From positions 1-64,000 of the forward strand of contig NZ_FMBC01000024.1 of NCBI RefSeq assembly GCF_900094795.1: a stretch of 64,000 bases of DNA, written 5' to 3'. This document shows, one piece after another, positions 1 through 14,987 of this stretch. Every line of letters begins with the position of its first letter. The stretch's first letter is position 1. A model generated the notes under the pieces. The model searched no databases, was not told where the DNA came from, and worked only from the letters and a program-made list of their open reading frames with translations. This DNA comes from Kosakonia oryziphila (GTDB lineage Bacteria; Pseudomonadota; Gammaproteobacteria; Enterobacterales; Enterobacteriaceae). The translations under genes and the position numbers were made by a program.

Positions 1-326
1 GACCTCTGCTGACTTCTCGCTCCGGTTAATGACCGTTGCCCTTTCAGACATAAGGCGAGATCTCCCCAGGTAAGAACGCACTCCTTCATCACACAACCGC
101 CGCATCTACGCCGTTTTGCCCTGGTCACAAGAGTTTCGCGGTTCCTTGCCCGCTCGCCCTGCTCGACAGCGCCTCCTATGCGATTTTTGTTCATCGGCTC
201 ATGATTTATGCTCCACGCTTCCTCCCCACATTCGGTCGCCCTCATGCAGTTGCGCTTCACTTCTTTCGCTATGACCAGCTTAAGGCGGGACTTTCACCCA
301 CAGGAGTGCGCCCATGCTGGGCGCAC
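1..326 (-). mobile_element. Group II intron, 5' part (truncated by window edge)
   Basis: Read on the minus strand from 326, the sequence opens with the group II 5' boundary GTGCG. This lies in a perfect hairpin (arms GTGCGCCCA and TGGGCGCAC, loop GCA), followed by GGGTGAAAGTCCC. Further in are GAAACTCTTGTGACC, TACCTGGGGAGATCT and GAGAAGTCAGCAGAGGTC, the kind of text I know from domain I and the stretch before the maturase ORF of bacterial group II introns. The reverse transcriptase/maturase and domains V-VI would lie beyond position 1. The 5' splice site abuts the T-tract of the murA terminator, the target type used by group IIC introns. An AAAAA run (complement of 184-188) could be EBS1 pairing with the T-tract. 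Class IIC and the EBS assignment are inference. A 62-codon plus-strand reading frame (201-389) across this region is judged spurious. Confidence 0.82.
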
Positions 327-359
327 AAAAAAGAAGCCGCAACGCTACGCGTCACGGCT
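327..359 (-). terminator. Rho-independent terminator of murA
   Basis: On the minus strand an 11-bp stem (349-359 with 335-345, two G-T wobbles, 3-base loop) is followed by TCTTTTTT. It begins 62 bases past the murA stop codon. The T-tract ends exactly where the group II intron begins. Confidence 0.88.
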
Positions 360-421
360 ACCTTCAAAAGATTAACTGACAAGCATTAGAGCGGAGACTC
401 TTTTTTATCGCTAACTGTTGC

Positions 422-1681
<1,260 letters not shown>

Positions 1682-14860: not shown

Positions 14861-14987
14861 GTGCGTGTGGTCGAATTTTTTCAGGCTACGCCCTTGCAAA
14901 CAAAGAGTAAAAATTACGGCGCAGCTACAGTTTCCCTGGTGTTGGCGCAGTATTCGCGCACCCCGGTTAATCCGGGGTCATTTTTTT
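14861..14987 (+). ncRNA. arcZ: Small regulatory RNA ArcZ
   Basis: ArcZ is an Hfq-dependent small RNA that activates rpoS translation and represses flhDC and other mRNAs. It is processed to a 3' fragment of about 56 nt. The 3' part here, from TTTCCCTGGTGTTGG through CGCAGTATTCGCGCACC, matches E. coli ArcZ as I remember it. It ends in the terminator stem ACCCCGG-TTAAT-CCGGGGT followed by CATTTTTTT. The 5' half (GTGCGTGTGGTCGAATTTTTTCA) is more diverged. It lies between elbB and arcB as in E. coli, and its T-tract overlaps the last arcB codons on the other strand. ArcA represses arcZ in E. coli, and ArcZ in turn lowers arcB. Confidence 0.92.

Follow-up and report, generated by a model that had tools for sequence, protein, structure and literature searches.

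A group IIC intron behind the terminator hairpin of an IS4-type element downstream of murA in Kosakonia oryziphila

The window analyzed here is a stretch of 64,000 nt from the genome of Kosakonia oryziphila (G000, an assembly of 129 contigs), and it starts at the left end of contig C92. On the minus strand, murA (422-1681) is followed by an A-tract with a half-stem (406-389), by TAATGCTTGTCAGTTAATCTTTTGAAGGTAGCCGTGACGCGTAGCGTTGCGGCTTCTTTTTT (388-327) and by GTGCGCCCAGCATGGGCGCACTCC..., which extends from 326 to the contig end. The features at this locus are as follows.

1-326, minus strand: 5' portion (326 nt) of a group IIC intron, GTGCGCCCAGC..., recognized by RF02001 and by two more genome copies; it runs off the contig.
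74-245, minus strand: match to group-II-D1D4-3 (RF02001), whole model 1-170, 100.9 bits, E 2e-19, gathering 32 (Rfam).
142-147, minus strand: EBS1, AAGGAA, intron nt 180-185, in the 8-nt loop of GCGG-GCAAGGAA-CCGC, from covariation and the hairpin fold.
184-188, minus strand: AAAAA, the earlier EBS1 candidate; a conserved motif of D1 that reads AAGAA in 48 of 51 copies.
327-332, minus strand: T6 tract, the IBS1, pairing with EBS1 as A-T, A-T, G-T, G-T, A-T, A-T.
327-388, minus strand: outermost 62 bp of an IS4-type end; the sequence recurs at 7 other places in the genome.
335-359, minus strand: terminator hairpin of the IS4-type element, 11 pairs and a loop of 3, from the terminator scan and fold.
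377-379, minus strand: tnp stop codon in the C41-type frame, within the IS4-type end.
388-372, minus strand: IS tip, TAATGCTTGTCAGTTAA, part of the IS4-type end.
389-406, minus strand: remaining left half of the native murA terminator (AAAAAA GAGTCTCCGCTC), interrupted by the IS; relatives L027 and L028 have AAAAAAGGGAGCCTCTGCTCCCTTTTTT.
422-1681, minus strand: murA, an ORF of 419 aa named from its E. coli matches.

Elsewhere in the window, the ArcZ small RNA gene was recognized at 14865-14973 (+) (RF00081, 89.5 bits; Rfam).

The intron starts with GTGCG at 326 on the minus strand, directly after the T6 tract, and is oriented in the same sense as murA. On both points an earlier reading of this DNA, made from the letters alone (the sequence-only reading), was correct. 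The match to the full RF02001 model indicates that the ribozyme core D1-D4 is present in the window. The break at the contig end is attributed to a cut in the assembly, as is usual for repeats.

The 5' end of this intron occurs three times in the genome, on C92 (the window), on C121 (100% identical over 329 nt) and on C59 (88 nt, identical). All three copies lie directly behind a hairpin and a T-rich tract, and C121 and C59 are the further copies behind terminators that the sequence-only reading had proposed to look for. Three 3' ends were located on C64, C65 and C20, each with the C-terminus of a reverse transcriptase (RT), a candidate D5 and ...CCTATGCCGAT. Together with GTGCG at 326, these junctions agree with the group II boundary rule GUGYG...AY. 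When C59 and C20 are joined, the result is GGCCTTTTTCTTT followed by TCTG, the exact uninterrupted site in the same-genus relatives L270-L272. Likewise, joining C121 and C65 yields GGCTTTTTCTTT followed by TGTG, the exact uninterrupted site in the same-genus relatives L278-L280. Both empty sites are precise, with neither duplication nor loss, and the search for empty sites in relatives, also suggested earlier, was thus successful for two of the three copies.

For the window copy itself, C64 was taken as the right-hand part because after the intron 3' end it reads TACTGCTCTTGGGTAATA, IS sequence that continues the hairpin-bearing IS of the window. C64 ends within an invasin-like reading frame that runs on into C77, which carries sfsB, the gene adjoining murA in relatives. 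Based on the IS sequence and the invasin frame shared by C64 and C77, C64 is probably the right-hand neighbor of the window. C64 and C77:1-3900 constitute an island between murA and sfsB that is absent in relatives. Found in it are IS6-like end repeats (GGCACTGTTGCAAAG), a recombinase of the phage integrase family and a gene that resembles inverse autotransporters/invasins and has Big_1 repeats.

Another type of group II intron (GTGTGCCGGGCATGC...), here called the second type, is also present in several copies, with 5' ends on C31, C35, C39 and C79 and 3' ends on C32, C50, C58, C73 and C86. These five 3' ends were considered for the intron at murA and rejected, as they differ from those on C64, C65 and C20, and were attributed to the second type. 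The second-type copies on C31, C35 and C39 also lie behind terminators. The 5' end on C79 (1-400) is unlike the other three, with the remainder identical, and on C32 (1-400) the intron 3' end is followed by about 36 nt that resemble the C79-type 5' end. These arrangements may be mosaic or nested copies. Additionally, C26:53511-54299 holds part of yet another group II intron with a D5 of 65 bits and a partial RT, near transposase-like sequence.

The sequence-only reading had expected an RT and a 3' junction to the left of the window. The junction and the RT C-terminus were recovered, on the other contigs described above, and the RT core was not. Only the last 80 aa of the RT are assembled, with 67% identity to the C-termini of relatives, and a PF00078 search of the genome gave two unrelated loci only, so the assembly lacks the central part of the intron, in which most of the RT is encoded. 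The candidate D5 of the 3' halves is a 34-nt hairpin with a 4-nt loop and a 2-nt bulge (-22.4 kcal/mol). Rfam gave no D5 match in the three 3' halves at E<=0.001, and the RF00029 match in the relative L054 reached 37.9 bits, under the gathering score of 40.

Full-length copies of the lineage are about 1.83 kb and encode RTs of 430-470 aa. The RT of a Leclercia relative (L055) has the GsI-IIC RT as its best match (424 bits) and scores 325 and 278 bits against two other group II intron RTs, which we take to be of the IIC type. Its matches to the T. elongatus maturase (143 bits) and LtrA (131 bits) are far below these. This protein of 430 aa possesses RVT_1 and GIIM (X domain) and nothing else, the endonuclease domain being absent. 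The assignment to group IIC made from the sequence is upheld by the siting at terminators and by the closeness of the relatives' RT to the GsI-IIC RT. The window intron is a new member of an already known intron kind, and its behavior is that of a textbook group IIC intron. Versions of the same intron of about 650 nt that lack an ORF are found in a Zoogloea sp. MAG (L110 and L163) and on a Cupriavidus campinensis plasmid (L054). The two Zoogloea copies are identical at 653 of 653 positions behind different hairpins, which suggests recent movement with the RT supplied in trans.

Three papers describe the insertion of IIC (class C) introns behind rho-independent terminators and the reverse splicing of the IIC intron RNP into a DNA hairpin with a T-rich IBS1 (PMC8919778, PMC4424553, PMC3522654). 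The lineage of the window intron was searched for with a pattern of 43 bases taken from its 5' end (GTGCGCCCAGCATGGGCGCA...), which was found in at least 120 stretches from beta- and gammaproteobacteria. The sites tested were 125 distinct upstream sequences, comprising the matches listed, the window and four others; a stretch from an insect-pathogen plasmid (L237) was left out. Under a fixed rule for terminator-like sequences, a stem of at least 5 pairs and a T-rich tail, 118 of the 125 distinct sites among the matches listed were terminator-like, compared with 79 of 2400 control positions (3.3%) from the same loci. Mean folding energies were -21.0 kcal/mol for the sites and -11.7 kcal/mol for the controls, and most of the 7 misses still show a hairpin by eye. 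The siting of the intron at terminators is therefore far above chance, and the idea that such introns choose terminator-like stem-loops is confirmed for the lineage and for all three copies in this genome. The attC target that characterizes the IIC-attC introns was not found, as these three sites are terminators. In E. coli MFDS1022581 (L056, 2049097), an intron with 79% identity lies behind the hairpin that ends an IS200/IS605 element, beside a TnpB gene, another IS-associated hairpin used as a landing site. Around position 435 of L221, an intron copy directly follows the 3' end of another intron (...CCTATGCCGATG), forming a tandem.

The pairing of EBS1 with the T-tract was examined by covariation. 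Within the first 200 nt of the intron, mutual information peaks for target positions -1, -2, -3 and -4 with intron nt 180, 181, 182 and 183, which is an antiparallel arrangement. Over 51 copies, 89% of the EBS1-IBS1 cells are paired, compared with 58% for shuffled targets (maximum 67%; none of 2000 shuffles reaches the observed value), although kinship among the copies means that the target shuffle gives no strict probability. Shifted EBS1 registers pair at 34-68% in the same 51 copies, and the loop itself varies among copies (AAGGAA, ATGAAA, CAGAAA, GTAAAA and others). The placement of EBS1 at 142-147 is carried by this register test and by the changing loop sequences. The sequence-only reading had proposed that AAAAA at 184-188 pairs with the T-tract. 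T6 is indeed the IBS1, but its partner is 142-147, since 184-188 pairs only at the shuffle mean, has no association with the target and reads AAGAA in nearly all copies. No antiparallel covariation past -4, which is relevant to EBS2, was seen in the mutual information tables. For EBS3, no column was prominent among 23 full-length copies; the +1 position is T in all three copies of this genome.

The hairpin at 359-335, about 60 bp from murA, folds at -21 kcal/mol (z -3.1) and was the sole terminator-like site behind murA in the terminator scan. Its earlier identification as the terminator of murA did not hold. In a search with the murA end, the 62-69 bp preceding the intron recurred at seven more loci in the genome (C38, C128, C118, C102, C48, C43 and C41), with the hairpin repeated with small changes in each. 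Two domains of IS4 transposases, PF13006 and PF01609 (Pfam), are found in the C41 copy. The hairpin was also considered as the last codons of tnp; its reading frame varies between the IS copies. L027 and L028, two close relatives, have a native terminator behind murA and then sfsB, and the IS-type hairpin is absent behind murA. The left half of the native terminator is still present in the window (AAAAAAGAGTCTCCGCTC), where folding gave no terminator fold, and the IS begins inside the hairpin. This retained half and the start of the IS within the hairpin indicate that the IS entered murA's terminator and that the intron lies behind the inward-facing hairpin of the IS. At the murA site, no transposase gene is left in the window or on the C64 side; the IS terminal repeat is present there. 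Presumably, the IS hairpin now terminates murA transcription.

This nesting of intron and IS prompted an examination of IS4-type ends in several genera. The sites were window 327-406, L240, L241, L257, L267, L285, L293 and the IS ends of G000. An A-tract lies 9-22 bases outside the IS4-type end at 48 of 56 distinct ends, compared with 6.4% of control positions. The seven complete copies have exact target duplications of 11-14 bp, and in six of them the duplicated sequence forms the tip of a strong hairpin with an A tract and a T tract beside it, for example aaaaaggCGCCGATGGCGccttttttt. Thus, IS4-type elements appear to target the hairpins of intrinsic terminators, a result to be read as a strong lead and not as a survey, since the sites were used as encountered, an element may have been counted at both of its ends and the elements are related. 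The IS4-family element ISRm22 is known to target REP palindromes (PMC1525189), and no report of IS4 targeting of terminators was found in the literature searched.

Taken together, the window almost certainly contains the 5' portion of a retromobile group IIC intron, which reverse-spliced directly behind the tnp-3' hairpin of an IS4-type element, the IS having inserted earlier in the terminator hairpin of murA. The position, the hairpin, the copies, the empty sites of two of the three copies, the covariation of EBS1 with IBS1 and the RT class of the relatives support this directly. An IS4-type element would first have entered the hairpin of murA's own terminator, and the group IIC intron would then have reverse-spliced directly behind the inward-facing tnp-3' hairpin of the IS. 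The target would be chosen by the DNA hairpin and by pairing of EBS1 (AAGGAA) with the T-rich IBS1. Reverse splicing by the intron RNP and priming of cDNA at replication forks may be supposed by analogy with IIC introns, for which such priming is known. The locus would then read murA, native half-terminator, the 62-bp IS end (hairpin and T6), intron, truncated IS (C64), accessory island and sfsB, with an intron of about 1.8 kb that would end in ...CCTATGCCGAT and be followed by TACTGCTCTTGGG.

Other accounts of the locus are possible in principle. The presence of a well-formed hairpin about 60 bp behind murA could be taken to mean that the intron lies behind the native terminator of that gene, with AAAAA at 184-188 as EBS1. 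This is refuted, and retains hardly any probability, because the hairpin, together with its flanks, belongs to an IS4-type end with seven other loci, relatives carry another terminator directly behind murA and 184-188 has no association with the target. It is also very improbable that the window sequence is a dead, leftover 5' fragment without a full-length insertion. The contig does stop inside the intron and the RT core is unassembled, but three 5' ends are balanced by three 3' ends, exact empty sites result when two of the pairs are joined, and C92 and C121 have the same 5' end over 329 nt. These matched ends and this identity have the look of recent full-length copies collapsed by short-read assembly.

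A further alternative concerns the order of events, in that the intron could have arrived as cargo of the IS4-type element instead of moving into an IS that was already in place behind murA. An intron-free copy of the exact murA-type IS variant was not found, which counts in favor of this account. The other two copies in the genome, however, lie outside any IS, and the intron is absent behind the hairpin in all seven other IS ends, which makes arrival as cargo unlikely, if less so than the two accounts above. The reverse splicing of the intron into a resident IS is accordingly preferred.

The intron shares the GTGCG start and ...AT end with IIC (class C) introns such as B.h.I1 and GsI-IIC and, in the Enterobacterales, Di.ze.I1 and So.gl.I1. 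Also shared are an RT with an X domain and without an endonuclease domain (here in relatives) that is closest to the GsI-IIC RT, the siting directly behind intrinsic terminators and EBS1 as the main exon contact. As points of difference, the present lineage (43-mer GTGCGCCCAGCATGGGCGCA...) had no match here to a named intron, and the terminator of the window copy is borne by an IS. The IIC-attC introns of integrons have a hairpin-containing DNA target in common with this lineage, but their hairpins are attC sites and those here are terminators. RmInt1-type introns of S. meliloti are likewise group II introns nested in an IS. RmInt1, however, homes to a defined IS sequence under another target rule, while here the IS merely supplies a terminator. 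The IS elements share with the IS4 group the inverted repeats TAATGCYKRTCAGTTAAG, a length of 1411-1434 bp, duplications of 11-14 bp and an Nterm_IS4 transposase. What sets them apart is the preference for the tips of intrinsic-terminator hairpins seen in the present elements.

In conclusion, the identity of the terminator at the murA locus and the position of EBS1 have been corrected, and 51 natural copies show how, in this intron lineage, the EBS1 loop follows the target. The main interest lies in the nesting of intron and IS and in the target preference of the IS4-type elements. On balance, we favor the view that two unrelated mobile elements home on intrinsic terminators and nest. The IS4-group elements would insert at hairpin tips, with the tip as the duplication, and their own conserved, inward-facing tnp-3' terminator would restore the stop of the invaded gene and create a landing site for IIC introns. 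The wider rule, which is testable, would be that two or more unrelated kinds of mobile DNA use terminators as safe harbors, and that one kind can supply the harbor of the other.
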